DNA of 27,195 nucleotides. Origin: Planctomycetota bacterium. GTDB lineage: Bacteria > Planctomycetota > Brocadiia > JAJRTI01. Positions within the stretch are counted from its first letter, which is position 1. The number at the start of each line of letters is the position of its first letter. The stretch spans positions 1 to 27,195 of the forward strand of contig JAJRTI010000596.1 of NCBI GenBank assembly GCA_024278415.1. The letters are read 5' to 3'. The notes beneath the pieces are model-generated. The model was given only the letters and a program-made list of their open reading frames with translations. It was not told the DNA's origin and did not search any database. Below, piece after piece: positions 167 to 22,128 of the stretch. The translations under genes and the position numbers were made by a program.

Positions 167-167
167 C

Positions 168-6700: not shown

Positions 6701-7654
6701 CGCCGCGGCGGCTACCGGGTCAAGACCGTGAACCTCCTGGAAGCCGGCGAAGTGCCTGAGGACTGCGACGTGCTCATCGTCGCCGCGCCCACGAAGCCGT
6801 TCGAGCCTGAGGCCATCGACATCCTGCGCCGCTACTGCAAGAACAACGGCCGGCTATTCGTGATGCTCGAACCCGCCATCCGAGGCCAGGCGCCTTCGGG
6901 CCTGGCCGGGTTGCTGGCCGATTACAAGATCAACGTCGACGAATCCGTGCTCGTGGTCGATTCGGCCGAACGGGCGCGTCTGACACGCGACATGCGGCTG
7001 GTGCGCGTGAAGCAACCGAGCGTGAAGATTCGCGTGACTGGGAGCGGCTACTCGTTCCCCGAGGTGACCGAGAAGCTCCGCAGCATGGGCCTGCCGACGG
7101 TCTTCTACGTGGCGTGCAAGGTCGCGGCCGTGGAATCTCCCAAGCCGCCACCATACGGCGGCCCGCCGCCAGACGACGGCTCGCCCTACAAAGCGTCGAA
7201 GTTGCTCGAAGCCTCGCCCGATGGCTGGGGCGAAACCAACGTCAGCGCCGATGGCATGGCCCAGAAGGGCGACGACGACATGAACGGCCCCATCCCGTTC
7301 GCCGCGGTCGAGGAGCCCAAGCCCAAGCCGCGCCAGCCTTGGATGCCGCCAGAGGCGACAAAGGAGGCCGCCGGCCCGCGTATCGTGTGCGTGGGCGACG
7401 CGGACTGGCTGTCGAGCTACTTCCTCAAGGCCGGCAACAATGCCAACGAAGACCTGCTCATGCGCTGCGTGAGTTGGCTCGCGAAGGACGAGGGCGAGAT
7501 CAAGATCTACCCCGTGCCTCTCCAGCCCACGCGCATGCCTGAACTCAAGCCAAATCAAAAACGCTGGACGTTCGCTGTTTCCATGATCGGCCTGCCGCTG
7601 TTCTGGATCGCGATCGGCTTGCTCGTCTGGGGCATGAGGCGGCTCAGGGGGTAA
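3773..7654 (+). CDS. Double-length GldG-like ABC transporter auxiliary protein
   Basis: A 1293-aa membrane protein built from two GldG-like halves. Half one has about three N-terminal helices (residues ~10-100), a periplasmic domain with a charged coiled stretch near 260-285, the VEGFGEHRTSEW segment near 378, and a closing helix at ~677-696 (GLPCAWVLFGLFVLLM). Half two repeats the plan: helices at ~710-795, a periplasmic domain with TTGHGERNIEK near 951, and a closing helix at ~1272-1290 (GLPLFWIAIGLLVWGM). Proline-rich linkers occur near 921-930 and 1120-1195. The ATG at 3773 is chosen because GGAGG lies 11 bases upstream; an upstream start at 3755 would overlap the permease. GldG proteins are usually about 500-600 aa single copies. 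The likely role is the extracytoplasmic partner of the ABC-2 transporter; the substrate is unknown. Confidence 0.88.
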   Translation: MQRQGTTLWQLLTRWLVLVGLLATLSGVVGMAYADQWESVAGWATFGAGFVVMVVCAVMNMGWLIAALVSKRALIALNVFVMSVLAGAIMVGANYLAERRLPLKLRRIDITSRGLNKLSSKTRNLLEGLDKKVQVCALLSRPDIAEKLQDFPFAAEVRDLLDEYAASSPNLSVRYIDMMQDPKAAWEFIIWIKLPTVLKEHGVDAAAFKKAFSKAKVDTLDGFNLLRTIKTWDDAEGKIQEIVNRRTGPTLEELLLGKKKDADAKQEQKKEADQLKKKLTNFLANVTAVLDKAKLDTDQKEKLLKAIQDVDIPEPEANSVIFVCGKKSKHVKPYDMVNTDYGNGMNTSREPTKTLKAEDAFTAAIMEVLDQKQKKVYFVEGFGEHRTSEWGNKGYSQIKSEIEKANMEVKTLDLAREGKVPDDCDVLVSAGPRVPYGMASIMAIRKYLARGGALLALGEPLEPNLERFERKPSGMAPLLKQYNIDMREDVSALDVTYVPVLTNKGIGRQAQLSYSVLTAKYPKHRIVEDMQGRITQFSGACFVDAAAKPANADFVATRIVQGSKDGWGETDLAALRKGRASKDPATDVMPPVPIGAAAQRKVEKEGEKSARIVAIGDSDFVTNAALKAARNNGDLLVNAVAWLAHKESRIGIGPSAGKVAKLVLSKEDRNGIFYAAVVGLPCAWVLFGLFVLLMRSLRNVGLTRSSLTRLGLPVGLLLVVVGAVAGKLGAAAALARGFEAAGAIVFVLALIAGRGFVKGLFSRRRMAGANTLVMVVLGFAIVAMVCFVSTRRYLRFDWTKGHSLALSDAAAQVVKGVKKWITIYAMYPEAVANQYPILSKINNDLEEFAYNSPYVNIKFVPHDPDKRKAFFQALKLEPDERTIVVFQRADADETKVRYLTFEDMIQQDMDQRMMMQMRMQGMPPPPPKYKGEQALTNALKFVAEDKDTTLYFTTGHGERNIEKRKGDGFGDAHDALRRGGYRVKTVNLLEAGEVPEDCDVLIVAAPTKPFEPEAIDILRRYCKNNGRLFVMLEPAIRGQAPSGLAGLLADYKINVDESVLVVDSAERARLTRDMRLVRVKQPSVKIRVTGSGYSFPEVTEKLRSMGLPTVFYVACKVAAVESPKPPPYGGPPPDDGSPYKASKLLEASPDGWGETNVSADGMAQKGDDDMNGPIPFAAVEEPKPKPRQPWMPPEATKEAAGPRIVCVGDADWLSSYFLKAGNNANEDLLMRCVSWLAKDEGEIKIYPVPLQPTRMPELKPNQKRWTFAVSMIGLPLFWIAIGLLVWGMRRLRG

Positions 7655-7750
7655 GACGTAAGGAGTAAAGCGTAAAACGCAAATGCGCGGAGTTCATGGC
7701 GGTCGCGCAACTCTCTGCTTACGTTTGACGTTTGACGTTTGACGTTTCAA
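7652..7750. repeat. Facing seven-base arrays between gldG-like and DUF4340 genes
   Basis: The left arm starts in the stop codon of the preceding gene: TAAGACG, TAAGGAG, TAAAGCG, TAAAACG, CAAATGC (7652-7686). The right arm, 7718-7750, reads CTTACGT, TTGACGT three times, then TTCAA. ACGTAAG at 7656-7662 is exactly complementary to CTTACGT at 7718-7724, so the arms can form a hairpin. From 7751 to 7828 there is AC-rich sequence with no gene, ending in the ribosome-binding site of the next gene. Confidence 0.9.
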
Positions 7751-7828
7751 GCCCCACGCCCTGAATTGCCAAGACACACGACCCACCCACCACCCAACCA
7801 CCGCACAGCACAGCCGGAGGTCCCATCC

Positions 7829-10108
7829 ATGAATTTCCGAACCACCATCATCCTTCTCGTGATCGTGGTCGCAGGAGGCCTGTACATCGGCCTCGTGGAG
7901 CGCAAGCAAAAGAGCGCGGAGGATATTGAGAAGGCGTCCAAGAAAGTCGTGGGCATCGAAAACCTTGCCGACAAGGCTACTAAGATCCGCATCCAGGCCG
8001 AGGCCGGCGAGGCGATCGTGTGCGAACGCAACGGCGAAGGCGCTGACGCCAAGTGGACCATCTCCAAGCCGCGCAAGCTGCGCGCGGACAAGTCCGACGT
8101 GCGCAGTATCCTCAGCGACCTGGAGTTCCTGGAGAAGAAGGGCGTCGCAGACAAGCCCGACCTCGCCAAGTACGGCCTCGACAAGCCCCGCGGCAGCATC
8201 GCCTTCTGGATCGGAAAGGACAAGAAGACTCTGCTCATTGGCTCGAAAGCGCCTGACGGAAACAACGTGTGGGCCAAGATGGACGGCGTCGACCAAGTCT
8301 ACCTCGTCGGCAAATCCATCTTCGACAAGGCCAAGAAGGGCGTGAACGACCTGCGCGACCGCAAGATCTTCAGCGTGAAGAAGGACGACGTGACCCGCAT
8401 CGTGATCAAGCCTTCCAAGGGCGCGGAGATCGAATGCGCCATGGAGGCGACGGGCTGGGCGCTCAAGAAACCCGTGGCCGACCAGGCCAACAAGAAAGAG
8501 GTCGATAAGATCATCGACAAGCTCAAAGACCTCACCGTGGACAAGGAAGACTTCATCGATGAAGAGGGCAAAAACCTGGCCAAGTACGGCCTGGACAAGC
8601 CGCAACTCGTGGCCGAGATCTACCAAGGCGACGTGGCGCAGACGATGCTCGTGGGCAAGGTGGTCGATGGCAAGAGCGACAAGGTCTACGCCAAACGCAA
8701 AACCGAGCCCGCGATTGTCGAACTCAAGAAGGACTTCCTCGACGACGTGAAGAAGAAGCCCCAAGACCTGCGCGACAAGAAGCTGGCGCGGTTCGAAAAG
8801 GCGGACGTGACCGCGGCTGAGATCAAGGTGGCCGGCAAAGACATCTCCCTGAAGAAGGAAGAAGGCGACTGGAAGATGTCCAAGCCCAAGGAGATGAAGG
8901 CCGACACCACGGAAACCGAGAACCTCTTCGGCGACGTGAGCAAGCTCGAAGTGGCCGAGTTCGTCAACGACGCGCCCAAGGACAAGGACCTGGCCGCGTA
9001 CGGGCTCGACAAGCCCCAGGCCGAAATCGCGCTCACGCTCAAGGACGGCAAGGCCGCGCCCAAGCTGCTCGTGGGCGCCAAAAAGAAGGACTCGGACCAG
9101 TACTACATGAAGCGAGACGGCCAGGCCCCCGTGTTCCTCGTCGACGCGAAGGATCTCATGGAAAAGCTCGGCGCGGGCTACCTGACCTTCCGCAAGCACC
9201 TCGTGCTTGAATTCACCAAGGTCAACACCAAGAAGCTCACAGTCAAGCGCAAGGACAAGACGTTTGTCTGTGAGGCCGACCCGAAAGAGGCCGGCAAGTG
9301 GAACCTGACCCAGCCGATCAAGGCTGAGGGCGACAAGACGGACATCGACAACATCCTGTGGGATATCTCGTACCTGCGCGCAAAGACGTTCGTGGCCGAG
9401 AATCCCAAGGATCTGAAGCCGTACGGCCTCGACGCCCCCGCCATCGTGGTTACGGTCGTGTATGACAAGGAGATGAAGGGCGAGGCCGGCAAGAAGGACA
9501 AGGACAAGAAGAAGGAAAAGGTCTCCGTGACCAAGGTCCTCATGATCGGCAAGAAGGCCGGCGACGCGTACTACGCCAAGCTCGGCGATAGCGGGCTCGT
9601 GTTCAAGATCGGCGAGTCATACGTGAAGAACCTCCAGGCCGAACTGGCTTCCAAGACGATCATGGAGACCACCAAAGCCAACGTGAAGGCCGTGACCCTC
9701 GCGTACGCGGCCAAGACTGTGAAGTTCGAGAAGAAGGACGACAAGTGGCAACTCGGCGGCAAGAACTATGACAAAGACAAGGTCGACGAGATCTTGGACA
9801 AGCTGTCCTCGTTCCGCGCCAAATCCATCGCAGCCTACTCGGCCAAGGATCTGAAGCCTTACGGCCTGGACAAGCCTTACCTCACCGTGGGCCTCGCGGT
9901 GGGCGATGGTGAGAAGACGGTCATGATCGGCGCCAAGAAGGGCGACGACGCGTACTACGTCAAGGCCGGAGGCAAGGATTTCATCTACGTGGCCGACAAA
10001 GCTGACGTGGAGAAGCTCGAAAAGGAGAAGCCTGAGGCGCCGAAGCCGGTCCGGGCTGAGGCCAAGAAGCCAGCCAAGACCGGAGCCAAGGCTGCGGACA
10101 AGAAGTAG
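7829..10108 (+). CDS. DUF4340 protein with five tandem repeats
   Basis: A 759-aa protein with one N-terminal membrane anchor (about residues 5-24) and a long, lysine- and aspartate-rich extracytoplasmic part. The motif YGLDxP recurs at residues 115, 253, 391, 532 and 678, giving five units of 138-146 residues. Each unit has a stretch like RKLRADKSDVRSILSDLEFL before the motif and a VxLIGK/IGAKKxxxxxYYxK stretch after it, as in the DUF4340 family. Single DUF4340 proteins are about 300-500 aa. The tail is Ala/Lys/Pro-rich. The start at 7829 has CGGAGG eight bases upstream; a longer frame to 7739 reads through repeat sequence and is rejected. DUF4340 genes commonly follow GldF/GldG genes, so it is probably part of the same envelope complex. 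Its molecular activity is unknown. Confidence 0.88.
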   Translation: MNFRTTIILLVIVVAGGLYIGLVERKQKSAEDIEKASKKVVGIENLADKATKIRIQAEAGEAIVCERNGEGADAKWTISKPRKLRADKSDVRSILSDLEFLEKKGVADKPDLAKYGLDKPRGSIAFWIGKDKKTLLIGSKAPDGNNVWAKMDGVDQVYLVGKSIFDKAKKGVNDLRDRKIFSVKKDDVTRIVIKPSKGAEIECAMEATGWALKKPVADQANKKEVDKIIDKLKDLTVDKEDFIDEEGKNLAKYGLDKPQLVAEIYQGDVAQTMLVGKVVDGKSDKVYAKRKTEPAIVELKKDFLDDVKKKPQDLRDKKLARFEKADVTAAEIKVAGKDISLKKEEGDWKMSKPKEMKADTTETENLFGDVSKLEVAEFVNDAPKDKDLAAYGLDKPQAEIALTLKDGKAAPKLLVGAKKKDSDQYYMKRDGQAPVFLVDAKDLMEKLGAGYLTFRKHLVLEFTKVNTKKLTVKRKDKTFVCEADPKEAGKWNLTQPIKAEGDKTDIDNILWDISYLRAKTFVAENPKDLKPYGLDAPAIVVTVVYDKEMKGEAGKKDKDKKKEKVSVTKVLMIGKKAGDAYYAKLGDSGLVFKIGESYVKNLQAELASKTIMETTKANVKAVTLAYAAKTVKFEKKDDKWQLGGKNYDKDKVDEILDKLSSFRAKSIAAYSAKDLKPYGLDKPYLTVGLAVGDGEKTVMIGAKKGDDAYYVKAGGKDFIYVADKADVEKLEKEKPEAPKPVRAEAKKPAKTGAKAADKK

Positions 10109-10126
10109 CCCCACGCGACTACCCTA

Positions 10127-10154
10127 TGCCGCGGTTCCAGGCCGCGGCACTTTT
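10127..10154 (+). terminator. Rho-independent terminator after the DUF4340 gene
   Basis: An 8-bp perfect stem, TGCCGCGG (10127-10134) and CCGCGGCA (10142-10149), with a 7-base loop is followed by CTTTT. It sits 19 bases after the stop and closes the ABC operon. The T-run is short. Confidence 0.75.
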
Positions 10155-10188
10155 CGTTTACGGACGCTGTTCTGCCATACGGGAGGCC

Positions 10189-10367
10189 TCCAACGAATTC
10201 AGATAGACAACGAATAGGGAGGAAGGGCGGATTGGCCACGCATGTTGGCCTCCATGGTGTGGGGCCCATTCCGAACCAATGGCTCTTGGGCGCCAGCAAC
10301 CGTGGCGCGTCCGGGAGCGTTGTCCGTCGTCTTGTCTGTCATTCGTTGTCTATCTGAATTCGTTGGA
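10189..10367. repeat. 27-bp perfect inverted repeat framing the htrA upstream region
   Basis: Arms at 10189-10215 and 10341-10367 are perfect inverted copies (the left arm begins TCCAACGAATTCAGATAG). They enclose 125 bases that show no gene I recognise. No flanking target duplication is visible. The core GAATTCGTTG/CAACGAATT recurs upstream of thiL (26187-26225), suggesting a dispersed element family. Confidence 0.85.
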
Positions 10368-10394
10368 AGCTTCCGAAGGGAAGGAGACACCGCC

Positions 10395-11756
10395 ATGACC
10401 CATCACGCGAGACGGTTTGTCGCCGCGGCCATCGTGGCCACAGTGCTCCCCTGTGCGCAGGCCAGCCGCGCGACGCGGCGCACGCCGGTCGTCGTGGCCG
10501 TGGAAAAGACGGCCCCCGCCGTGGCGAACATCAGCACCGAAGAGGTCGTCATCCAGGGCTACCGCGATCCCTACTGGGGCTCTCGCGATCGCTTCTTCCA
10601 CGACATGTTCGACGACTTCTTCGGCCGCTACTACTACCGCAAGGCCAAGGTGGCTAAGCCCCTTGGGTCCGGCGTGCTCATCGACCCCGATGGCTATGCC
10701 GTCACCAACGAACACGTCATCAGCCGTGCGACGAACATCAAGGTGCACCTCTCGGGTTCGAAGACCATTTACGACGCGACGCTCGTGAGTTCCGACGCGG
10801 AGCAGGATCTCGCGGTCATCAAGATCAACTCCGACAAGCCGCTGCCGTTCATCCGCATGGGCACGTCGAAGGATCTCATGCCCGGCGAGACGGTCGTAGC
10901 CATCGGCAACCCCTTCGGCTACGAAAGCTCCGTCACCACCGGCGTGCTGAGCGCCACAGGCCGCGACATCCAAGTGCCCACGAGCAAGGGCAACATCGTC
11001 TACAAGAACCTCATCCAGACAACCGCGCTCATCAACCCTGGCAACAGCGGCGGCCCCCTCATCAATATGGACGGCGAGCTGATCGGCATCAACACGGCGA
11101 TTCGCGCCGACGCGCAAGGCATCGGTTTCGCCATCCCGGTCGACAAGGTCCGCGAGGTGGTCGCGACGCTATTCAGCTTCCAGGTCAAGAAGAAGCTTTG
11201 GCTCGGCGCGACAGTCGAGGCTGGCAAGGCCGGCGTCGTCGTGAAGTCGGTGTACGACCAGAGCCCGGCCCAAGCGGCCGGCCTGCGCAAGGGCGACGTG
11301 ATCGTGCAGGCCGATGGTGCGTCTGTGCGCGACCTGTTTGGCTATGCGAAGTACATGTTCAAACGCCGCGTGGGCGACACCGTGCGCCTGGCGGTTGACC
11401 GCCACGGCAAACGGCGCACGGTCGCCGTCAAGCTTCAAGCCGTGCCCAAGCCCTCGGGCGAAAAACTGGCCCAGAAGAAGCTAGGCCTCACCGTGCAGAC
11501 GCTCACTCCCGCGCTCGCCCGAAGGCTGCGCATGCGGCTGGGCGAAGGCGTGCTGACCGTCGACTTGCAGCCTGGCAGCCCAGGCGACGAGGCCGGCCTC
11601 AAGAGCGGCGACGTGATCGTGCAAATCGGGCGCTACCTCGTTCGCAACGTCGATGAGTTAGGCACCGTGCTGGAGGCCATTCCGGCCGGCGCCGTCGTGC
11701 AAGTCATTGTGGTCCGCCAAGGCAGCCTCGGCCGCACCAGGATCCAAGTGAGGTAA
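10395..11756 (+). CDS. htrA: HtrA/DegP-type periplasmic serine protease with two PDZ domains
   Basis: A 453-aa secreted protease/chaperone that degrades misfolded envelope proteins. A signal peptide covers about residues 1-24. The trypsin-like domain carries the full triad: His107 (TNEHVIS), Asp138 (DAEQDLAVIKI) and Ser218 (NPGNSGGPL). An aromatic, charged loop (about 53-80, RFFHDMFDDFFGRYYYRK) precedes it, as in DegP LA loops. PDZ1 covers about 265-350 and PDZ2 about 360-453, each with an (A/S)GLxxGDVI-type motif. The ATG at 10395 has AAGGAG eight bases upstream; the frame is open farther upstream but runs through an inverted-repeat element. It heads the operon leading into moxR and bat genes, which supports an envelope quality-control role. 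Confidence 0.95.
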   Translation: MTHHARRFVAAAIVATVLPCAQASRATRRTPVVVAVEKTAPAVANISTEEVVIQGYRDPYWGSRDRFFHDMFDDFFGRYYYRKAKVAKPLGSGVLIDPDGYAVTNEHVISRATNIKVHLSGSKTIYDATLVSSDAEQDLAVIKINSDKPLPFIRMGTSKDLMPGETVVAIGNPFGYESSVTTGVLSATGRDIQVPTSKGNIVYKNLIQTTALINPGNSGGPLINMDGELIGINTAIRADAQGIGFAIPVDKVREVVATLFSFQVKKKLWLGATVEAGKAGVVVKSVYDQSPAQAAGLRKGDVIVQADGASVRDLFGYAKYMFKRRVGDTVRLAVDRHGKRRTVAVKLQAVPKPSGEKLAQKKLGLTVQTLTPALARRLRMRLGEGVLTVDLQPGSPGDEAGLKSGDVIVQIGRYLVRNVDELGTVLEAIPAGAVVQVIVVRQGSLGRTRIQVR

Positions 11757-11761
11757 CCCAC

Positions 11762-12697
11762 ATGGCGCCGCGAACGTGGCAATGGCTAATGCTTGTGCTG
11801 GCGGCGCCCTTGCCCGCGTTCGCACAGGCGCAACCCACCTTCACGGCCAAGCTCGTGGCGAGCGAGATCGCCACCGACGGCCGCGCGGTCGTGGTGATTG
11901 ACGTGTCGTGGGTCGAGGTGGCCGGCCGCAGCCTCCGCGTACTCACGCCCCGCGCGCCTTCGCCGAAAAACTTGGAGCTGGAAAACGTCGCAACCGAAAT
12001 CACCAGTGCGCCGGCCCCGGACGGCACGCACCACCGCGTGCGGCTCACGTGCGCGTTCAAGCCCCTTGAGCCCGGCGACGCCGAGACCGGCCCCATCGAG
12101 GTGCGCTACCTGTCGACCGATCTCGCGCAGATCGTGTCCGGCCACGGCGTCAATGCGGACGGCCGGCAGCACTTCACGCACACGGTCAAGTCCATGTCCG
12201 TGTACGTCGCCAACCGCTCGCGCACGGTGCTGCTGATCGTGCTGGCCGCGCTGGCCCTGGTGCTGGTGGCCGCGTCCGTCGCCATTGTGGCCGCGCTCGT
12301 GAAACAATCAAAAACCCCAGCCGCGGAGCCGGCCTTGGACGCGGCCGCGAGCGCAGAGAAAGCCGCACTCGACCGGCTGCATGCCTTGCGGACGCTTCGC
12401 ATCGAGGGCGACACGAAAGGCTATGTGGGCCGCGTGGCCGAGTTGCTCTCGCAGTACGTGGCAGACAAGTTCGGCGCCGACGCCGCGGACGCGGCAGCCC
12501 TGGCAGCACACCTAGACGAACACGCCGCGCGGCGCCTCGCCGAACTCGTCGAGCGCGCCGAAAAGATCCAATACGCCGGCGACCCACCGACCGACGACGA
12601 GCTGAATCGCATCGCCGCATTCGCCGAGGATCTGCTGCGCAAGCAGATGCCTGACGCAGATGTGGACCTGCGAAGCAAGATTCGGATGAAGGAGTGA
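11762..12697 (+). CDS. Signal-peptide, single-TM protein related to BatD/DUF4381 proteins
   Basis: A 311-aa protein of uncertain function. It has a signal peptide (about 1-23), a beta-rich extracytoplasmic domain (24-150), one membrane helix (about 156-177) and a cytoplasmic alpha-helical tail. The tail, with LRIEGDTKGYVGRVAELLSQ and the later PTDDELNRIAAFAEDLL, resembles the tail of the 316-aa protein at 16751 (GQGKVKEFYYRLSNIVRHY and PTDDEINAACDAAVQLV), so the two look like paralogues. The layout is that of DUF4381/BatD-like proteins found with MoxR-vWA genes. It starts five bases after htrA, with GAGGTAA just upstream, so it is co-translated with it. Confidence 0.75.
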   Translation: MAPRTWQWLMLVLAAPLPAFAQAQPTFTAKLVASEIATDGRAVVVIDVSWVEVAGRSLRVLTPRAPSPKNLELENVATEITSAPAPDGTHHRVRLTCAFKPLEPGDAETGPIEVRYLSTDLAQIVSGHGVNADGRQHFTHTVKSMSVYVANRSRTVLLIVLAALALVLVAASVAIVAALVKQSKTPAAEPALDAAASAEKAALDRLHALRTLRIEGDTKGYVGRVAELLSQYVADKFGADAADAAALAAHLDEHAARRLAELVERAEKIQYAGDPPTDDELNRIAAFAEDLLRKQMPDADVDLRSKIRMKE

Positions 12698-12799
12698 TAC
12701 GTGAGGCGTGAAGCGTGAAACGTAAGCGGAGGCGCTTGCGGAGAGTAGCGCCCCCCCCTTACGTTTTACGCTCTCACGTTTCACTCCTTACGTTTTAGG
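12694..12799. repeat. Facing seven-base arrays upstream of moxR
   Basis: The left arm overlaps the stop codon of the preceding gene: GTGATAC, GTGAGGC, GTGAAGC, GTGAAAC, GTAAGCG (12694-12728). The right arm reads CTTACGT, TTTACGC, TCTCACG, TTTCACT, CCTTACG, TTTTAGG (12758-12799). Bases 12712-12726 can pair with 12758-12772 with one mismatch, and an inner 6-bp stem GGCGCT/AGCGCC (12731-12736, 12747-12752) sits in the loop. The moxR ribosome-binding site AGGAG (12797-12801) lies at the edge of the right arm. Confidence 0.92.
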
Positions 12800-12807
12800 A
12801 GTCCCCC

Positions 12808-13800: not shown

Positions 13801-13866
13801 GTGAAACGTAAAACGTGAAGCGTGAAGCGTGAAGCCGACAGCACTGCGCCGTCAACCATCAACCAT
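13801..13866. repeat. Mixed seven-base arrays between moxR and the DUF58 gene
   Basis: Directly after the moxR stop come GTGAAAC, GTAAAAC and three GTGAAGC (13801-13835). After a short spacer come two CAACCAT units (13853-13866), then a C-run and the DUF58 start. The two sides belong to different families, so no long hairpin can form. Confidence 0.9.
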
Positions 13867-13878
13867 TCCGCCCCCCCC

Positions 13879-15082: not shown

Positions 15083-15165
15083 GTAGTCATTAGTCATTAG
15101 TTGCTGGTCATTGGTGGATGTGGCACGCACAACGCACAATGACCAATGACCAATGACCAATAACC
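15083..15165. repeat. Facing seven-base arrays between the DUF58 and PpiC genes
   Basis: The left arm reads GTAGTCA, TTAGTCA, TTAGTTG, CTGGTCA, TTGGTGG (15083-15117). The right arm reads AATGACC three times, then AATAACC (15138-15165). GGTCATTGG at 15106-15114 is perfectly complementary to CCAATGACC at 15150-15158, giving a hairpin across about 35 bases. The next start follows ten bases after the array. Confidence 0.93.
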
Positions 15166-15175
15166 AGGTCCGCCC

Positions 15176-16537
15176 ATGCCCGAACTCTCCCGAGACCAAC
15201 TGCTCGAAGACCTCCAGGCCAAGCGCGCGGCCGGCGAGCGCGGGCAGCGCATCTTCACCAAGCGCACCGCGTTCTTCTCCGCGTGCGTGCTCGTGATGTT
15301 CGGCATGCTCGTCGCGCTTCTCGTGCGCCGACCCACGGCGCCGACGCGCGCCGCGCCGGCCGACCGCGTCGCGCATCTCAAGCGCGTGGCCGACCGCCTC
15401 AAGGTGCAGAGCCTGCCCGGGCCGGCCATGCGCTACTACGCGCGCTACCTCGACGCGGCCGACATCCCGCCCGCCGAACGGGCGAACGTGTGCTACATCA
15501 TTGCCGACCTTGCGGTGCAAGCCGGCCGCTACGAGGACGCGCTGGGGTGGCTCGCGAGCGCGGAGCAATGGGGCCCCGCGGACTCGCTCAAACCGGAGGT
15601 CGGCAAGCTCCAGCGCCTCTGCTTCGAGCGCCTCGGCCGGCCCCTGGACGCGGATTATCAACTGGCGTCCACCGCGGCGCTCGACCGCGTGGACGGCAAC
15701 CCGCGCGGCGCAGTTGTCGCCATGATCGGCAAAGAGAAGATCACCATGGGCGACATCGACGACGCAATCCAGGCGTTGCCGAAGTACGCGCGGGATCTGT
15801 ACTCCAAGCCTGGGCGCAAGCTCCAGTTCGTGCAGCAGTACGTCAACACGCGCATCCTCTACCGCAAGGCGCAGAACCTGGGCTTCGACAAGAAGCCCCA
15901 GGTGCGCAAGCGCGCGGAGGCCGCGCTCGCAGACCTTGTGGTGCAGGCTTTCCTCCAAGAGGAGGTGCGCAGCAAGGTCCAGGTGTCGGACTCGGAGCTG
16001 AAGCTCTACTACCAGGTGCACCAGACCAACTACGGCGAGCCCGCGCAGGTTCGGCTGGCGCACATCGTCGTGGGGTCGCAGAAGCTCGCCGCGGAACTCA
16101 TCGGCCAACTGAAGGCCGGCGCAGACTTCGCCACCCTGGCCAAGCAGCACTCGAAGGACTCGGCTACGAAGGACTCCGGCGGCGAGATTCCCGGCTGGAT
16201 CGCGCAGGGCCAAGGGACCCCGGCCATGCCCGGCGCCAAGGGCCTCGACGATGCCGTCCTCGCGCTCAAGCCGGGCGACGTGGCCGCCACGCCCGTGAAG
16301 AGCCAGCGCGGCTTCCACGTCGTGAAGCTGATCCAGAAGAAAGATGCGCGCATCAAGCCCCTCAGCGAAGTGCGCAAGCAAGTCGAAGCCGCATACCGAG
16401 CCCAGAAGGAACAGGAACGGCTCGGGCAAGTCCTCAAGGACGCACACAAGCAACTGAATGTGCAAATTTTCCTCGAAGCCCTCGCCACGGACGCGCCGGC
16501 CGATTCCGCCGCGCCGAAGAAGGTGCAAGTGAAGTAG
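15176..16537 (+). CDS. Membrane-anchored PpiC/SurA-type peptidyl-prolyl isomerase
   Basis: A 453-aa parvulin-type foldase. A signal anchor lies at about residues 31-50 after a basic N-terminal tail, so the rest is extracytoplasmic. Residues ~65-170 are TPR-like helices (GPAMRYYARYLDAADIPPAE, then AGRYEDALGWLASAEQWGP). Residues ~185-285 resemble the SurA N-terminal helical region. The rotamase domain is at ~288-387, with VRLAHIVVGSQ, FATLAKQHSKDSATKDSGGE and the closing RGFHVVKLIQKKDA. It lies inside the moxR-bat operon, an unusual neighbour that suggests a role in folding envelope or secreted Bat components. The start follows a repeat array; only a weak AGGT lies upstream. Confidence 0.88.
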   Translation: MPELSRDQLLEDLQAKRAAGERGQRIFTKRTAFFSACVLVMFGMLVALLVRRPTAPTRAAPADRVAHLKRVADRLKVQSLPGPAMRYYARYLDAADIPPAERANVCYIIADLAVQAGRYEDALGWLASAEQWGPADSLKPEVGKLQRLCFERLGRPLDADYQLASTAALDRVDGNPRGAVVAMIGKEKITMGDIDDAIQALPKYARDLYSKPGRKLQFVQQYVNTRILYRKAQNLGFDKKPQVRKRAEAALADLVVQAFLQEEVRSKVQVSDSELKLYYQVHQTNYGEPAQVRLAHIVVGSQKLAAELIGQLKAGADFATLAKQHSKDSATKDSGGEIPGWIAQGQGTPAMPGAKGLDDAVLALKPGDVAATPVKSQRGFHVVKLIQKKDARIKPLSEVRKQVEAAYRAQKEQERLGQVLKDAHKQLNVQIFLEALATDAPADSAAPKKVQVK

Positions 16538-16543
16538 GACGGA

Positions 16544-16621
16544 GGTAGCCGCATGCGCCAGCATGCGGGCGGCCGGTGAGCCACTCGTCAGTTGGCCCGC
16601 ATGCTGGCGCATGCGGCTACC
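16544..16621. repeat. 27-bp perfect palindrome element in the intergenic gap
   Basis: Arms at 16544-16570 and 16595-16621 are perfect inverted copies (the left arm begins GGTAGCCGCATGCGCCAG) with a 24-base loop. It starts six bases after the PpiC-type gene's stop. It lacks a T-run, so it is more like a REP-type element or mRNA-end hairpin than a terminator. Confidence 0.93.
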
Positions 16622-16638
16622 GCGGACGTCTCGTCCGC
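16622..16638. repeat. Short hairpin adjoining the palindrome
   Basis: GCGGACG and CGTCCGC, 7 bp each, with a TCT loop, lie immediately after the 27-bp palindrome. Confidence 0.7.
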
Positions 16639-16651
16639 TCGAGTCTCCCAG

Positions 16652-16717
16652 CTTGTAGTAGGCCCGTAAGGGCCTTTCCGCCTGTGGCTCCGGCGCCCTT
16701 ACGGTCGCCATTACAAG
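16652..16717. repeat. Second imperfect palindrome element
   Basis: CTTGTA (16652) with TACAAG (16717) and CCGTAAGGGC (16664-16673) with GCCCTTACGG (16695-16704) form an imperfect stem of about 22 bp with a 21-base loop. Its sequence is unrelated to the preceding palindrome. The start of the next gene lies 34 bases downstream. Confidence 0.8.
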
Positions 16718-16750
16718 CCCCAGCGCACGCCAATCCCACGTCCATACGCC

Positions 16751-17701
16751 ATGATGCACGCACCCATCGCCATACTCCTTGCCTGCCTGGCCGCAGCGGC
16801 TCCAGCGAAGAAGCCGCCCGTGGAAGTGCGCGTCGACTGCAACAAGGTTCTGGCTCGGGTGGGCGACACAATCCGCTACACAGTGACGGTCGAGCACGAC
16901 GCCAATGTCGCGGTGAAGTACCCCGACTACCCCAGCTCCATCGCCGGCTTCGCGGTCACCGGGTTCGGGCCGCTCGTGGAGCGCGAGGCCAACGGCCGGC
17001 AAGTGATCTCGCGTTGGTACGACCTGCGGCACTTCCTGGCCGGCGCGTACACCATTCCCGGCGTCGCAGTCGAGTACCAGATCCCCGGCAAGCCCAAGGC
17101 GCTCGTGCGCTCGGCCGACCTGTTCGTGGAGATCGAGAGCGTCATGGGCCCAGACGCGCTGGGCGACATCCGCGATATCCAGGAGCCCCTCGCGGCGCAG
17201 TCGCGCTACGCCAAGTACTACCTCTGGGCCGGCGTGGGAGCGCTCGTGCTCATTGCGGCAATCGTTGGCATCATCGTCTTCGAGGGCCGGCGCCGGCAGG
17301 CCGTGCTCGCGCCGCCGCCTGTGCCGGCACACGAACTCGCGTACGCAGAGCTGGAGCAGTTGCTCAAGCTCGACCTGATCGGCCAGGGCAAGGTCAAAGA
17401 GTTCTACTACCGCCTCTCCAACATCGTGCGCCACTACATCGAGAACCGCTTCGGCCTCATGGCCCCGGAGCGCACGACCGAGGAGTTTCTCATGGAGATG
17501 GCGGACACGGACTTGCTCGCGCCCGCACACAAGGGCCTCGTCTCGCAGTTCCTCGAACGTTGCGATCTCGTCAAGTACGCCAAGCACACTCCCACCGACG
17601 ACGAGATCAACGCGGCTTGTGACGCGGCCGTGCAACTCGTCGACGAGACGCGCTCGCGCGGCGAGACGGCGGCAGTATCAAGTGAGGCTGGCGAGGAGTG
17701 A
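16751..17701 (+). CDS. BatD/DUF4381-like single-TM protein, paralogue of the 11762 gene
   Basis: A 316-aa protein with a signal peptide (about 1-18), an extracytoplasmic beta domain resembling the BatD N-terminal fold (VEVRVDCNKVLARVGDTIRY; VISRWYDLRHFLAGAYTIPG), one membrane helix (about 157-176) and a cytoplasmic helical tail. The tail has GQGKVKEFYYRLSNIVRHYI and ends near PTDDEINAACDAAVQLVDE, matching the tail of the gene at 11762. DUF4381-type proteins commonly sit between DUF58 and batA genes, as here. Two adjacent Met codons make the start uncertain by one residue, and no Shine-Dalgarno is visible. Function in the Bat complex is inferred from context. Confidence 0.8.
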   Translation: MMHAPIAILLACLAAAAPAKKPPVEVRVDCNKVLARVGDTIRYTVTVEHDANVAVKYPDYPSSIAGFAVTGFGPLVEREANGRQVISRWYDLRHFLAGAYTIPGVAVEYQIPGKPKALVRSADLFVEIESVMGPDALGDIRDIQEPLAAQSRYAKYYLWAGVGALVLIAAIVGIIVFEGRRRQAVLAPPPVPAHELAYAELEQLLKLDLIGQGKVKEFYYRLSNIVRHYIENRFGLMAPERTTEEFLMEMADTDLLAPAHKGLVSQFLERCDLVKYAKHTPTDDEINAACDAAVQLVDETRSRGETAAVSSEAGEE

Positions 17702-17710
17702 CGCCCCCGT

Positions 17711-17745
17711 CAGCAACCATGAACCACCACCCATCAACCATTCTG
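17711..17745. repeat. Degenerate seven-base array upstream of batA
   Basis: Units CAGCAAC, CATGAAC, CACCACC, CATCAAC, CATTCTG (17711-17745) lie between the preceding stop and the batA GTG. There is only one orientation and no facing arm. The units carry no stop codon in the forward direction. Confidence 0.8.
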
Positions 17746-17753
17746 CCACGCCT

Positions 17754-18809
17754 GTGCCACTAGCCTTCACATCTCTCGGAACCATCTTCCGCTACCCGGC
17801 GCTGCTGCTATTGCTGCTGCTGTTGCCGCTCGTGGTGTGGCAGCGCCTGGCGCGCGGCCAGGGCGCGGCGGTGCGGTTTTCGAGCTTGCGCAACCTCAAG
17901 CGGCTGGCGCCCACGTGGACGCTCCAGGCGCGGCATGTGCTCGTGCTGCTGCGCGTGTCGGCGATCGGCCTCGCCATCATCGGCCTCGCCCGGCCCCAGT
18001 GGGGCAAGGAAGACGCCAAGATCACCACGCTCGGCATCGACATCATGCTCGCGGTCGACATCTCGCCCAGCATGGAAGCGCTTGACTTCAAGATCGACGG
18101 CAAGCCCGCCAACCGGCTTGCGGTGGCCAAGATGGCCGTCGAGCAGTTTGTGAAGCACCGCGAGAACGACCGCCTGGGGCTCGTTGTGTTCGCCAAGCGC
18201 GCCTACCTCCAATGCCCGTTGACGCTGGACTACGACATTCTGCTCGAGTTCCTGCGCCGGGTCGAGATCACGCGCGACCCGGACGAGAACGGCACCGCGA
18301 TTGGCGCGGCCATCGGCACGAGTGTGGCCCGGCTTGTGGACGTGACCAAGGGCAAGGACAACGAAGATCGGCCGCAGGGCAAGGTGATCATTCTGCTCAC
18401 CGATGGCCGCAACAACGTGTCCTATCCCATCAAACCCGAACAGGCGGTCGAGATCGCCAAGAGCTTCGGCGTGCGCATCTACACCATCGGCGCCGGCACC
18501 AAGGGCAACGCCCCCTTCCCGGTGAAGGACTGGTTTGGCAACATACGCTACCAACTGATGCCGGTGGACATTGATGACGATGGCCTGAGGAAGATCGCCG
18601 AGGCCTGCGGCGGCCAGTACTTCCGAGCCACAGACACGAAGTCGCTGCAAAGGGTGTACAAACAGATCGACAAGTTGGAGCGTACGAAGAAGGAAGTGAC
18701 GAAGTACGCGGAGTATGACGAACTCTTCGGCTACTTCTGCCTGCCGGCGCTCTTGCTCCTCCTGCTGGAAATCGGGCTCGCCAACACCGTCTTCCGAAAG
18801 ATACCGTGA
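17754..18809 (+). CDS. batA: BatA, vWA-domain membrane protein
   Basis: A 351-aa membrane protein of the Bat (Bacteroides aerotolerance) set. Two N-terminal helices (about 9-30 and 62-79) flank the family's basic loop, and the typical ARPQWG follows. The vWA domain has an intact metal site: D102-x-S104-x-S106, T181 and D217 (LLTDGRNN). A C-terminal helix (about 324-345) returns through the membrane. The GTG at 17754 gives a normal BatA N-terminus (PLAFTSLGTIFRYP); the frame is open farther upstream to 17619 but overlaps the previous gene and the repeat array. No Shine-Dalgarno is visible. It probably works with MoxR, DUF58 and BatB-E in envelope stress or metal-dependent protein maturation. 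Confidence 0.92.
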   Translation: MPLAFTSLGTIFRYPALLLLLLLLPLVVWQRLARGQGAAVRFSSLRNLKRLAPTWTLQARHVLVLLRVSAIGLAIIGLARPQWGKEDAKITTLGIDIMLAVDISPSMEALDFKIDGKPANRLAVAKMAVEQFVKHRENDRLGLVVFAKRAYLQCPLTLDYDILLEFLRRVEITRDPDENGTAIGAAIGTSVARLVDVTKGKDNEDRPQGKVIILLTDGRNNVSYPIKPEQAVEIAKSFGVRIYTIGAGTKGNAPFPVKDWFGNIRYQLMPVDIDDDGLRKIAEACGGQYFRATDTKSLQRVYKQIDKLERTKKEVTKYAEYDELFGYFCLPALLLLLLEIGLANTVFRKIP

Positions 18810-18897
18810 GGAATGGAGGAATGGTTGATGGCCTATGGTTAATGGTTGATGAGCGGAAGCCCCTCGGCCCATTGACCATTGACCATTAACCATCTGC
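18808..18897. repeat. Facing seven-base arrays between batA and batB
   Basis: The left side starts at the batA stop: GAGGAAT twice (one base apart), GGTTGAT, GGCCTAT, GGTTAAT, GGTTGAT. The right side is CATTGAC, CATTGAC, CATTAAC, CATCTGC (18870-18897). ATGGTTAATGGT (18835-18846) pairs perfectly with ACCATTAACCAT (18882-18893), and the helix can extend inward with wobble pairs to 18851/18877. Confidence 0.93.
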
Positions 18898-18903
18898 TCT
18901 CCC

Positions 18904-19590
18904 ATGCGCTACACCCTCGGCCATATTCTCGCTTTGCTCTCGCCGATCGTGCCCATGGCCATTGGCGTCGTGCTCGCGTTCCATATGCAGTGCGCGAAGC
19001 GCGCGTTCCTGTGGCTTTCGCCGCTGGTGGTGCTGGTGGCGCTGCTCTATATATGGGCACTGCGCCGCAAGGAGGCCATGCTCGAACGTTTTGCGAGCCC
19101 GGCCCTGCTGCGGCATATCCTGCTGGGCGTGAGTCCGACGCGGCAGGTGGTCAAGGCGGTGCTGCTCATGCTCGCAATCGTCTTCATGATCCTGGCGCTC
19201 ATCGAGCCCCAGTTTGGATACAAATGGCACGAGCTGAAGCGCACCGGGGTGGACATCATGATCGCGCTCGACACCTCGCGCAGCATGCTCGCGAGCGACG
19301 TGAAGCCCACGCGGCTCTCCACGGCCAAGCGCAAGATTGAGGACCTGCTCAACATCCTGGACGGCGACCGCATCGGCTTGGTCGCGTTTGCCGGGCAGGC
19401 GTTCGTGCAATGCCCGCTCACGCTCGACTACGGAGCGTTCCGCACGATCCTCGATAGCGTCGACACGGAGAGCATTCCTCTGCCCGGCACGGCCATTGGC
19501 CGGGCCATCGACAAATGCCTCTCCGCGTTCGACCAGAAAGAACGCAAGTACAAGGTCATCATCCTCATCACCGATGGCGAGGACCACTAA
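18904..19590 (+). CDS. batB: BatB, N-terminal part, ended by an in-frame TAA
   Basis: The first 228 residues of a BatB-type vWA membrane protein. Helices lie at about 8-26, 36-52 and 85-101, then IEPQFGYKW (the BatB/BatA 'PQ' motif) and a vWA domain with D123-x-S125-x-S127, T196 (LPGTAIGR) and D224 (ITDGEDH). At 19588-19590 a TAA directly follows ITDGEDH. The same frame then continues with EKALDVAAAARDAGVPVYTV, which is exactly what a BatB protein should contain next. The gene is therefore broken by one nonsense codon, read through, or misread in the assembly. The stop removes the last part of the vWA domain and the C-terminal helix. There is no Shine-Dalgarno at the ATG. Confidence 0.88.
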   Translation: MRYTLGHILALLSPIVPMAIGVVLAFHMQCAKRAFLWLSPLVVLVALLYIWALRRKEAMLERFASPALLRHILLGVSPTRQVVKAVLLMLAIVFMILALIEPQFGYKWHELKRTGVDIMIALDTSRSMLASDVKPTRLSTAKRKIEDLLNILDGDRIGLVAFAGQAFVQCPLTLDYGAFRTILDSVDTESIPLPGTAIGRAIDKCLSAFDQKERKYKVIILITDGEDH

Positions 19591-19605
19591 GAGAAAGCGC
19601 TCGAC

Positions 19606-19986
19606 GTGGCCGCAGCCGCCCGGGACGCCGGAGTGCCCGTGTACACGGTCGGAGTGGGCACCCGTGCAGGCTCGTACATCATGATCACCGACGAGAAAGG
19701 CAACCAAGTGCATCTGAAAGCCCGCGACGGCAGCCCGGTCAAGTCGCGGCTTGACGAAAAGACACTCCAAGAGATCGCGGTGCGCACCGGCGGCAAGTTC
19801 GCCCGGGCCGACGACCAGGACTGGCCGCTGGAGCGGATCTACCGCGAGAAAATCGAGGAGATGGAGAAGCGCGAGCTGTCGGCCAAGAAGCTCAAGCGCT
19901 ACGAGCACCGGTTCCAATACCCCTTGGCGCTCGCGATCCTGTTGCTCTTCATCGAGCCGTTCGTGAGCGAGCGTCGGAAGGTGTAA
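19606..19986 (+). CDS. batB: BatB, C-terminal part, same frame after the TAA
   Basis: This segment is the continuation of batB in the same reading frame; homology resumes immediately after the stop at 19591. It covers the last strands and helices of the vWA domain (VPVYTVGVGTRAGSYIMITD; LQEIAVRTGGKFARADD) and the C-terminal membrane helix (PLALAILLLFIEPF). The coordinates given begin at a GTG that could serve as a restart, with a weak GAGAAAG upstream. A separate functional product is unlikely because the vWA fold would be split. No frameshift or decay is visible, so the nonsense codon is recent, suppressed or an error. Confidence 0.75.
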   Translation: MAAAARDAGVPVYTVGVGTRAGSYIMITDEKGNQVHLKARDGSPVKSRLDEKTLQEIAVRTGGKFARADDQDWPLERIYREKIEEMEKRELSAKKLKRYEHRFQYPLALAILLLFIEPFVSERRKV

Positions 19987-22077
19987 ATGCAAGTGCAAGT
20001 CACCCGACGCCCATCAACCATCTGCCATCTGCCATCTGCCATGCCGCCCGCTAAACACATCTTGCCGCCCGCCTTCGCCCGCGCGGCTGTGGCGCTGTGC
20101 ATCGCCGCGGCCTGCGTCGCATGGCGCGATCCCTTCGCGCGGAAGGTGAATCAAGGCAATGCGCTCTACGCGGACGGCAAGTACGACGAGGCGCTGAGCC
20201 GCTATGCCGACGCGCAGTCCAATGCGCCCAAGTCGCCGCTCGTGCTGTTCAACATGGGCGCCGCACACTTCCGCGAAGGCAAGTTCGACGACGCGGCCAA
20301 GCTCTTCCAACAGGTGACGGCATCCAACGAGGCCGACCTGATCCTGCGCGCAAAGGCCAACTACAACATCGGCAACTGCCTGGTGCGCAAGGGCAACTAC
20401 AAGGAGGCCCTGTTCCGATACCAGACCGCCCTCGACCTCACCCAGGACAAAGAGGGGCAGCCCATTCCCGGTTCCGCCCGCGTCCGAGCCGACGCCAAGT
20501 TCAACGCCGAGTGGGTGCAGCGCAAGATCCTGGAGGTGATGAACAAGGACCTTCGCAACCGGATGCCGGACTACCTCGCAATCTCCCCGGCCCGCCCGAC
20601 CGCGGTGGTGGGCCAGGAGCTGCCCATCAAGGCCGCCGGGTACGCGTTCGGCAAGAACCGCAAGCGCGACGGTGTGAAGGACGACGGCAGCCCCAAGGCC
20701 GACGACATCGGGCCCATCCCCATCGAGCCGGCTTGGGCCACGGACGTGCCCGAAGCCGTGGGCAAGATCGACGCACAGTCCGGCATCTTCAAGGCCGGCG
20801 GCCAAGTCGGAGCGGGCAAGGTGGTCGTGGAGGACCGCACGCAGGGCCGTTGGCCGTTGCGCGCAAGCGCGGAGCTTCGCGTCGTCATGCCCGACCGGCT
20901 CGTCGTCGGGCCGGCCACGGTCACCGTCTCGGCCGGCAGCTCGGCGGTTTTAGCCGCCAGCGCGTACTGGAACGGCCCGGACGGCATCCCCGACGACAAG
21001 GCCAAGGCCATCGCACAGAAGCAGCCCAAGGCCGGCAAAGCCCCCGCGTTCAAAGGCGACGACGTGGGGCCGCTGCCGATCGCGGTCGAGTGGTTCATCA
21101 AGTCCGGCAAGGACTTGGGCGTCATGGACGCGCAGACGGGCAAGTTCATTGCGGGCCCGAAGGCCGGCAAGGTCGTCGTCGCCGCGCGGCCGGTCCATGC
21201 GTCGTGCCGCGGCATGGAGGCCACGGCCGAGGTATTCATCGTCAAGCCTGATTACCTGCGCATCTGGCCGGCCCAGGCCGCGGTCGGCCTGGGCGACGAG
21301 CGCGTGTTCTCCGCGCGCGCATACGCGAAGGGGCCCAACGGCAAGATCGACGGCGTCGACCCCATGGGCAAGCCGCGGGGCGACGACTATGGCCCGCTCG
21401 ATGTCGAAGTCGCATGGAGCGTCGATGCGCCGGCCGACGTGGGCACAATCGACGCGGGCTCGGGCCTCTTCACCGCCGGCAAGACCAAGGGCAAGGCCAC
21501 GGTCAGGGCGCGATGCAAAGCGCCCGGAGTGAAACTCGACGACGCCACTGCCACGGTCGTGGTCACGTCGCTCGACTACATCCGCGTGTTCCCGCCCAAG
21601 GCCAAGATGGGCCTGAAGGACAACAAGCAGTTCGTCGCGCACGGCTACAGCATGGGCGCGAACGACAAGATCGACGGGGTGGACGAGAAGGGCAAGCCCA
21701 AGGGCGACGACATCGGCCCCCTGCCCGCGGTAGTGAAATGGAGCACGGATCTGAAGCCGAACGTCGCGGTCATCAATACGCAGACCGGCCTGTTGCGTTC
21801 GCTGGACACGCCCGGCCAGGGCAGCGTCTTTGCCGCCACGCAAGGTTCTGGTACGATACGAGAAGCTTCTGCCAAGGTGCAGATACAAGACAAGAAGAAG
21901 AAGCAGAAACAGAAACAGAAGAAGAAAAAGCAGAAGCAGAAACAGAAGCAACAAAAGCAGCGGCTGTCGAAGAAGGACGCCATGCGGTTGCTCAAGATGC
22001 TCGAAGAAGAACAGCGCAAACGCAAACGCAAACGCCGCGCCGCGTTCCAAGGGGATTACGTGGACAAAGCGTGGTAG
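19987..22077 (+). CDS. batC: BatC-like TPR protein with four inserted Ig-like repeats
   Basis: A protein of 696 aa (678 if it starts at 20041). From the 20041 start, a signal sequence (about 1-29) is followed by TPR repeats (NQGNALYADGKYDEALSRY; LFNMGAAHFREGKFDDAAKL; ANYNIGNCLVRKGNYKEALF). Then come four repeats of roughly 100 residues with the pattern (Y/R)LxxxPxxxxVxxG... DDxGPxP...W...VGxIDxxxGxFxAG, resembling Ig-like domains of quinohemoprotein amine dehydrogenase alpha subunits. A Lys/Gln-rich tract and a BatC tail (LSKKDAMRLLKMLEEEQRKR, ending DYVDKAW) close it. The 19987 ATG abuts the batB stop and has GGAAGG five bases upstream, but would translate a repeat array; 20041 follows that array. 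Position between batB and batD supports BatC. Confidence 0.85.
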   Translation: MQVQVTRRPSTICHLPSAMPPAKHILPPAFARAAVALCIAAACVAWRDPFARKVNQGNALYADGKYDEALSRYADAQSNAPKSPLVLFNMGAAHFREGKFDDAAKLFQQVTASNEADLILRAKANYNIGNCLVRKGNYKEALFRYQTALDLTQDKEGQPIPGSARVRADAKFNAEWVQRKILEVMNKDLRNRMPDYLAISPARPTAVVGQELPIKAAGYAFGKNRKRDGVKDDGSPKADDIGPIPIEPAWATDVPEAVGKIDAQSGIFKAGGQVGAGKVVVEDRTQGRWPLRASAELRVVMPDRLVVGPATVTVSAGSSAVLAASAYWNGPDGIPDDKAKAIAQKQPKAGKAPAFKGDDVGPLPIAVEWFIKSGKDLGVMDAQTGKFIAGPKAGKVVVAARPVHASCRGMEATAEVFIVKPDYLRIWPAQAAVGLGDERVFSARAYAKGPNGKIDGVDPMGKPRGDDYGPLDVEVAWSVDAPADVGTIDAGSGLFTAGKTKGKATVRARCKAPGVKLDDATATVVVTSLDYIRVFPPKAKMGLKDNKQFVAHGYSMGANDKIDGVDEKGKPKGDDIGPLPAVVKWSTDLKPNVAVINTQTGLLRSLDTPGQGSVFAATQGSGTIREASAKVQIQDKKKKQKQKQKKKKQKQKQKQQKQRLSKKDAMRLLKMLEEEQRKRKRKRRAAFQGDYVDKAW
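20012..20039. repeat. Seven-base array at the batC start
   Basis: CATCAAC then three CATCTGC (20012-20039), followed by CATG, whose ATG is the likely batC start at 20041. These units contain no forward stop codon, so the upstream ATG at 19987 stays in frame through them. Confidence 0.85.
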
Positions 22078-22080
22078 TGC

Positions 22081-22128
22081 GGAATGGTTGATGGCGGAAC
22101 GGACCATTGGTCACTGATTACTGATTAC
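22081..22128. repeat. Seven-base arrays between batC and batD
   Basis: GGAATGG and TTGATGG (22081-22094) are followed by a small palindrome GACCATTGGTC (22102-22112) and two CTGATTA units (22114-22127). The batD ATG follows nine bases later after GCGTCCCC. Confidence 0.8.

Follow-up and report, generated by a model that had tools for sequence, protein, structure and literature searches.

Seven-base tandem arrays in gene gaps, often paired as hairpin arms, in a Planctomycetota bacterium and in other bacteria

A gene run with seven-base arrays in its gaps

Positions 1 to 27,195 of contig JAJRTI010000596.1 (assembly GCA_024278415.1, Planctomycetota bacterium), which as a whole are called the window in the following, carry an operon-like gene run that comprises, by Pfam domains, ABC transporter genes and the genes for an ABC_transp_aux protein, a DUF4340 protein, an HtrA-type protease, MoxR, a DUF58 protein, a PPIase-domain protein, BatA, a BatB-like VWA protein and a TPR protein as well as BatD-like frames. 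The name HtrA is our own reading of a predicted trypsin-like domain together with PDZ domains. Many gaps of this run hold tandem arrays of seven-base units that are often inverted partners of one another, and arrays of the same period recur in genomes of several other phyla, where they form dispersed hairpins.

Period 7 was detected with Tandem Repeats Finder and by a lag-7 match count, the score being the largest number of lag-7 matches within 21 positions and the threshold for a run 17 of 21. A first-pass annotation of the sequence had named nine places with this period; at each of them the score (15-21 of 21 positions per gap) surpassed 500 dinucleotide shuffles (p <= 0.002), with none of the 500 reaching the observed value in eight gaps and 0.2 % doing so in the ninth (17702-17750). 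The constancy of the period and the confinement of the arrays to gaps, both likewise proposed there, are borne out by six period-7 runs in ten gaps (1,073 nt) as opposed to none in 17 gene spans (21,843 nt); spans and gaps were hand-chosen by us from the list of open reading frames, with gene starts set after the arrays, gaps read from a few bases upstream and the array at 115-167 left out. No run of any other period from 4 to 15 was found in these ten gaps. A home-made gene predictor placed four of the six runs outside genes and two inside, the latter because it sets start codons within or before arrays.

Two further parts of the description hold less generally. Judged by eye, the arrays of most gaps do begin at the upstream stop and end near the next start, but some 80 nt separate the end of the arm at 7719-7748 from the ATG at 7829. 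Heptamers occur at the nine listed places but not in the DUF4340-htrA gap (10109-10394), which is non-heptameric (shuffle p 0.66) and represents a large hairpin (minimum free energy (MFE) z -7.1). Its arms (10182-10215 and 10341-10374) measure 34 nt each, are 94 % complementary and lie 125 nt apart, without period 7. The gap of the first array also had to be corrected: the ATP synthase A gene (168-1418) lies on the minus strand, and the array at 115-167 comes after its stop.

That the units merely differ from gap to gap, as had been noted initially, is not supported. The arrays of the window are often inverted partners, an arrangement that had been overlooked, and several of the unit "families" are thus complements; many units are either such complementary arms or members of three groups that recur between gaps. 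By eye, these groups are GTRAARC (7652-7748, 12694-12799, 13801-13836), CCATYRA/ATGGTTG (13850-13868, 17714-17741, 18808-18894, 20015-20043, 22084-22097), and RGTCATT (15083-15169, with a related piece at 22104-22128); AGAGGTC at 115-167 stands beside them, so that about four groups can be distinguished in all. Strong hairpins on both strands were found in three of the nine gaps, namely gap 3 (12694-12799; MFE z -8.6 sense, -5.9 antisense), gap 5, and gap 7, while the fold of gap 4 reaches z -2.6 on one strand. Gaps 2, 6, 8, and 9 show no fold beyond shuffles, although the arms of gap 2 are complementary. The individual arrays are compiled in Table 1.

Table 1. Seven-base arrays and array pieces in the window.
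Feature	Position	Strand	Remarks
Array AGAGGTC/AGAAGTC	115..167		Directly downstream of ATP synthase A stop (168-170); fold beyond shuffles on minus strand only, z -4.3
Gap 2, left arm GTAAGAC, GTAAGGA, GTAAAGC, GTAAAAC	7652..7681	+	Begins inside upstream stop codon TAA
Gap 2, right arm (ACGTTTG)n	7719..7748	+	Complement type of left arm; whole gap folds no better than shuffles
Gap 3, left arm GTGATAC GTGAGGC GTGAAGC GTGAAAC GTAAG	12694..12726	+	Upstream TGA stop within first unit
Gap 3, right arm CTTACGTTTTACGCTCTCACGTTTCAC...	12758..12799	+	Pairs with left arm; period imperfect
Gap 4, left array GTGAAAC GTAAAAC GTGAAGC x3	13801..13836	+	Directly after moxR stop
Gap 4, right array CAACCAT	13850..13868	+	Group differs from left array (mismatched pair)
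Gap 5, left arm (TAGTCAT)n	15083..15103	+	Starts about 8 nt past TAG stop of DUF58 gene (15073-15075)
Gap 5, right arm (CAATGAC)n	15136..15169	+	Inverted partner of left arm; MFE z -3.3 sense, -4.9 antisense
Single array CAACCAT, upstream of batA	17714..17741	+	
Gap 7, left arm, ATGGTTG/ATGGTTA type, irregular	18808..18853	+	Begins at batA stop
Gap 7, right arm (CCATTGA)n	18866..18894	+	Inverted partner; MFE z -5.9 sense, -5.1 antisense
Single array CCATCTG	20015..20043	+	Ends in an ATG (20041-20043) in frame with TPR gene called from 19987
Gap 9, left piece ATGGTTGATGG	22084..22097	+	
Gap 9, right piece CCATTGGTCACTGATTACTGATTA	22104..22128	+	

Two frames of the gene run are interrupted: the BatB-like VWA frame (18904-19986) contains one in-frame TAA (19588-19590), for which sequencing error, decay, and readthrough are options, and the BatD-like frame (22137-23951) one in-frame TAG (22665-22667). 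The nearest MoxR is 72 % identical to that of the window (Scalindua), of the DUF4340 homologues in 392 Planctomycetota genomes the best-scoring one reaches 39 %, and neither homologue search found a close relative. All genome-wide tests were run on genomes other than that of the window.

Period 7, its units, and their placement in other genomes

For comparison, 80 loci from a MoxR search covering many phyla were used along with samples of other genomes. The window and the 80 loci (1.21 Mb in total) contain 30 period-7 runs, six of which belong to the window, whereas none of the other periods from 5 to 16 exceeds 13 runs, the number for period 6 as the next most frequent. A 400 kb sample of the Anaerolineales genome G006 gave 27 period-7 runs versus eight for period 14 and five for period 8; 17 of these 27 lie outside the genes called by the home-made predictor, a portion amounting to 17 % of the sequence, and confinement to gaps is thus upheld beyond the window even though some arrays (10 of 27 in G006) fall within predicted genes. 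The first-pass comparison with STRR, the heptanucleotide repeats of cyanobacteria, is apt. With bacterial heptanucleotide repeats in general, the arrays share a tandem unit of seven beyond chance and a mainly intergenic location. Genomes of Acidobacteria (G004), Lentisphaerae (G005), and Omnitrophota (G003) also look array-rich, the stretches in question being mostly on contigs with pattern hits, while the Kiritimatiellae genome G001 has no run in 120 kb, yet two in one of its loci (L025). Around homologues of the DUF4340 gene, period-7 arrays are found in two of 20 Planctomycetota genomes (L159, L160), which, with the gene order unchecked, only suggests that the arrays of the window are not ancestral.

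Two side observations concern the units. A 20 kb stretch of a Scalindua genome (L155 of G007), chosen at pattern hits, contains six period-7 arrays, none of them scored as a hairpin; several of their units are of the TGACCAA/TGACAAA type and thereby near the RGTCATT group of the window. Three tandem GTGAWRC units were seen in 44 viral-contig stretches (L330-L373).

Overall, 114 arrays comprise 74 different units, 46 of which contain a stop codon (40.8 when shuffled). Sharing of units between genomes (four versus 1.8 with shuffled letters, p 0.10) is not clearly above chance. GTGAAAC-type matches were obtained in nine of 50 genomes and in 22 of 41 genomes among G006 and its relatives, and GTCATT-type matches in 11 of 50; given the near-chance sharing, these are not read as transfer, and unit sharing across phyla was dropped as a sign of it. 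The reversed control pattern matched as well in several genomes (GTGAAAC-type: G017, 51/52; GTCATT-type: G455, 34/34, and G006, 23/31).

The placement of the first array relative to the stop codon was recorded for 106 gaps from six sources, which were partly selected via pattern hits and for which a lenient threshold blurs the starts by a few bases: in 37 gaps it starts no later than the last base of the stop codon, in 29 at a distance of 1-10 nt from it, in eight at 11-30 nt, and in 32 farther downstream. The frequent start at the stop codon, as though seeded by local sequence, and the many units with near-chance sharing would both fit purely local replication slippage, in which case 7 would be favored as the length of DNA that the polymerase grips and the hairpins would be by-products at pre-existing small hairpins. 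This explanation also draws on published work, according to which no repeat class is more frequent than heptamers in most of the genomes studied and the same reason is given (PMC4679880, PMC4692102).

Hairpin arrangement, polarity, and dispersal

Of the 57 arrays that come from the window, the 80 loci, and the G006 sample, 22 belong to an inverted repeat, as compared to nine of 285 random positions and three of 57 when the flanks were reversed without complementing. The order of the arms is identical in 51 of 51 inverted pairs, which come from nine of 11 families (5, 14, 20, 1, 1, 3, 4, 1, and 2 pairs); as the unit direction was read off the data, only the agreement within families counts, that is, 48 pairs in the six families with at least two pairs. 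The idea that 5' arms are generally G-rich was rejected: it applies to 39 of 44 hairpins, but 20 of the 44 represent one family (L192-L211), and C-rich first arms such as TTTCCCG (L259) and GACCGCC (L092, L101) speak against it. Among gaps without arrays, 23 have arms with G in excess, 21 with C in excess, and six with equal amounts, and the corresponding numbers for gaps with arrays are nine, four, and one; the arms in gaps without arrays lean towards purines (29 versus 16).

The GATTGAC hairpin found beside moxR in L053 recurs at approximately 42 places in its Acidobacteria genome G004, itself included (our own count from 89 listed pieces, with 40 of 90 candidates scored and some places matching one arm only). 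All non-self matches fall within positions 53-160 of the 211-position query, in which the hairpin occupies 59-147. Its loops measure 12-26 nt in 14 elements, and loops as well as flanks are mostly different. The GGGAGTA hairpin of L093 has many matching places in the genomes G013, G015, G016, and G017, and all 20 hand-picked places fold as hairpins. An independent origin is hard to conceive for one family with about 42 places in a single genome and another with many places in several genomes, and the common polarity within families likewise argues against purely local slippage, which we consider doubtful, if still the foremost of the competing explanations.

Several GGGAGTA hairpins of G016 (L193, L195, L196, L198-L200) have the flanks CCAGAACCAAACAGG ... 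CCTGAATTTTCTTG or close variants in common, which implies that the hairpin belongs to a longer dispersed repeat in these cases. In L322 (G013), at two gaps of the G006/G013 comparison given below, a second dispersed hairpin, AGTTCCTACGAGTTCCC...GGGAACT..GTAGGAACT, which is non-heptameric, adjoins heptamer arrays.

Turnover at orthologous gaps and a possible role as RNA

The two Anaerolineales genomes G006 and G013 were compared over 41 orthologous genes (median identity 79 %), which form 35 adjacent pairs and, with three dropped on account of gap length, provide 32 gaps. Neither genome has an array in 22 of these, only G013 in five, only G006 in one, and both in four. Where both carry arrays, the units differ by eye in three of the four gaps, and the fourth has related units in its outer arms. 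Two of the five gaps with an array in G013 only hold a weaker, sub-threshold heptamer-like hairpin in G006, and at one gap further relatives show other hairpins again or none.

Genes on both sides of an array are predominantly co-directional (20 of 21 gaps with arrays versus 294 of 387 without), which, together with the proximity to stop codons, would suit RNA hairpins selected between cistrons for mRNA processing, stabilization, attenuation, or translational coupling, the heptamers being an easy way to obtain a long stem. Such selection is nevertheless improbable in our view. Of 20 gaps, nine are more stable as sense and 10 as antisense RNA, and in 44 hairpins (one of them listed under two locus names) 97 G.T/T.G mismatches are balanced by 102 A.C/C.A mismatches, with p 0.11 for polarization per element; equal folding of the strands and balanced mismatches both speak against a function of the sense RNA, for which no support was obtained from either. 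Furthermore, a match between the two arms of an element is not the general rule (see below), and 22 of the 32 compared gaps have no array at all. Rfam covariance models gave no match at the gathering score. A terminator scan of the window (7600-22200) found 18 sites versus 13.8 expected, the lone one on the plus strand (10127-10149) being located outside the heptamer gaps, but it says little about these gaps because loops were limited to 3-8.

Transposase and reverse transcriptase as candidate agents

REP/REPIN elements resemble the arrays in being small dispersed palindromes downstream of genes, with several families and inverted doublets, but they have no period 7, and single REPs are palindromic and carry GTAG or CGTC tags, the GTAG type being tied to RAYT genes (PMC3733652, PMC3116915). 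Miniature elements of this kind, mobilized by a Y1 (RAYT) transposase, would account for repeats that are small, intergenic, palindromic, dispersed between co-directional genes, and present as several families per genome, and a dispersed palindromic element in gaps was indeed found in genomes other than that of the window. Y1_Tnp matches occur in eight of 12 genomes (seven above the cut-off), and none above the cut-off in G022, G024, and G026, relatives of G006 without GTGAAAC-type arrays. On the other hand, no Y1 match was found in the draft genomes G015 and G027, both with many GTGAAAC-type arrays. Moreover, 27 of 30 Y1 loci have no period-7 array within about 1.5 kb, and the arrays at the other three (L221, L228, L234) were not scored as hairpins; a RAYT gene flanked by its own element was not seen at any of the 30. 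With single arms that are non-palindromic and loops that are mostly different, mobilization by RAYT appears very unlikely, and neither the presence pattern of Y1 nor the surroundings of its loci support the link.

An equally slight chance is given to a telomerase-like reverse transcriptase that would extend broken ends by heptamers, the subsequent joining of which would yield unit, loop, and complement. The head-to-head polarity would fit two extended 3' ends and is retained even by the mismatched pair of gap 4, and DRT10 provides a bacterial precedent for RNA-templated synthesis of short repeats (PMC12632851). The repeats of DRT10, however, vary in length and are protein-primed, so that a constant 7 would stay unexplained (PMC12632851). 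RVT_1 matches were present in eight of 18 genomes and absent from five array-rich ones (G003, G005, G015, G025, G027), whose draft state makes the absence weak evidence; a need for a reverse transcriptase is unsupported by this pattern.

Relation to known heptamer repeats

An excess of heptamers among bacterial repeats has been described before, and the proposal that 7 reflects the contact length of the polymerase is credited to Mrazek et al. 2007 (PMC4679880, PMC4692102). In a survey of 117,861 genomes, short tandem repeats are reported as not enriched on average in bacteria (PMC12699852). TAACTGA of Beggiatoaceae (PMC4679880) as well as the GGGAATC-type and GGGGAYT-type heptamers of Xanthomonas and Nostoc (PMC4692102) resemble the arrays studied here in their unit of 7, their mostly intergenic location, and the mixing of related units within an array. 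TAACTGA is mostly found just upstream of starts, with one inverted set out of 170 (PMC4679880), and the Xanthomonas heptamers include convergent pairs able to form stem-loops (PMC4692102). As far as these accounts go, each deals with one unit type in mostly direct arrays, whereas the window and the other genomes have several units per genome, commonly in inverted arms located between a stop codon and the following start.

A parallel for the turnover is known from the Nostoc trnL group I intron, whose P6b stem is likewise built of heptamers (TDNGATT or NNTGAGT) and shows repeated unit shifts at one site and indels of 7, though at a single cyanobacterial intron position instead of in protein-gene gaps of other phyla (PMC4476775). 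Dispersal is paralleled in Geobacter metallireducens, where four tandem GGGACCG occur at 49 places and 15 of the 16 "class 3 global regulator sites" have five tandem MTYCTGA (PMC2700814). The Geobacter site classes are described as mostly paired and drawn as folded two-sided sequences, similar to the hairpin arms here, but the GGGACCG elements also occur within genes, and the interpretation given for Geobacter is that of regulatory elements (PMC2700814). In Chloroflexota, the (GATAGRA)n family of Chloroflexus aurantiacus resembles GGATAGA-type arrays of G013 (L221), but is presented in its description as satellites only (PMC6749651).

The bacterial heptamer excess, heptamer stems at one Nostoc locus, and paired heptamer sites in Geobacter are already published. 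What is seemingly new is the genome-wide, multi-family hairpin form that fills intercistronic gaps, the polarity within families, and the replacement of units at fixed sites; the results of an open-access literature search did not include intercistronic hairpins that occur genome-wide in several families, keep a common polarity, and carry different units at orthologous gaps.

Origin of the arrays and implications

The explanation we favor, with about even confidence, is that the arrays constitute parts of hairpin repeats that are dispersed and non-coding, have arms made of seven-base units, and are tolerated in gaps. A hairpin or a single arm would settle in a short intergenic gap, often just past a stop codon, where it would do little harm. 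Its arms would lengthen and shorten by 7-nt steps through replication slippage, aided by the hairpin itself, and ectopic copying, which would affect the arms more than the loop, would carry a unit family into further gaps of its genome. Often, the hairpin of a particular gap would be replaced by one of another unit, as the difference in units between relatives at the same gap may suggest. The analysis documents the inverted arrangement of the arrays, their placement near stop codons, the dispersal of families with one polarity and mostly different loops, and different units at the same gap in two relatives; slippage in 7-nt steps, ectopic copying, and near-neutrality are what we infer.

Several results weigh against this picture. 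In the window itself, the fold on both strands exceeds shuffles in the three gaps named above and in no others of the nine, several gaps holding single or mismatched arrays, and some genomes are array-poor despite pattern hits (Poribacteria G480, one run in 400 kb, and G478, none in 126 kb; Acidobacteria G461, none in 100 kb). Hairpin copying that keeps the arms alike would lead one to expect unit-by-unit agreement between the arms of one element. Such agreement is seen for GATTGAC (0.74 versus 0.53, p 0.003, n=20), but neither for GGGAGTA (p 0.56, n=9; p 0.998, n=12) nor for GATTCGA (p 1.0, n=5). Whole arms are hardly more similar to their own partner than to others in one comparison (0.939 own versus 0.919 cross, own best in 5 of 14) and less so in another (0.869 versus 0.885, 1 of 19). 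A loop-anchored order of units (p 0.002) was withdrawn, as it disappeared in counts that included every element a single time (p 0.70 and 0.09). Finally, in both families examined, loops are somewhat more alike than shuffled ones (score -1.85 versus -3.10, standard deviation 0.20; -2.15 versus -3.68, standard deviation 0.10), so that hairpins may also be copied as a whole.

A bolder alternative, which we deem unlikely, is a dedicated process that operates in several phyla and writes DNA by seven-base steps into gaps as head-to-head arms around a loop, switching the unit while keeping period and polarity. If so, the uniform 7 would be set by the geometry of a single conserved enzyme or hairpin intermediate and not by sequence.

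The occurrence of similar hairpins in unrelated bacteria, with units that can differ at one site between related species, hints at a process, so far little understood, by which intergenic DNA of bacteria is built in seven-base steps. In the literature consulted, the bacterial preference for exactly seven has so far been explained by the suggested polymerase contact length alone (PMC4679880, PMC4692102). The pair G006/G013 and the genome G004, with their numerous polar families and with units that differ at one site between relatives, make the question testable with regard to step size, seed, copying route, and fitness. As hairpins of this kind occupy a large part of some gaps within operons, they also matter for the annotation of start and stop codons and for the search for regulatory RNAs in these phyla.

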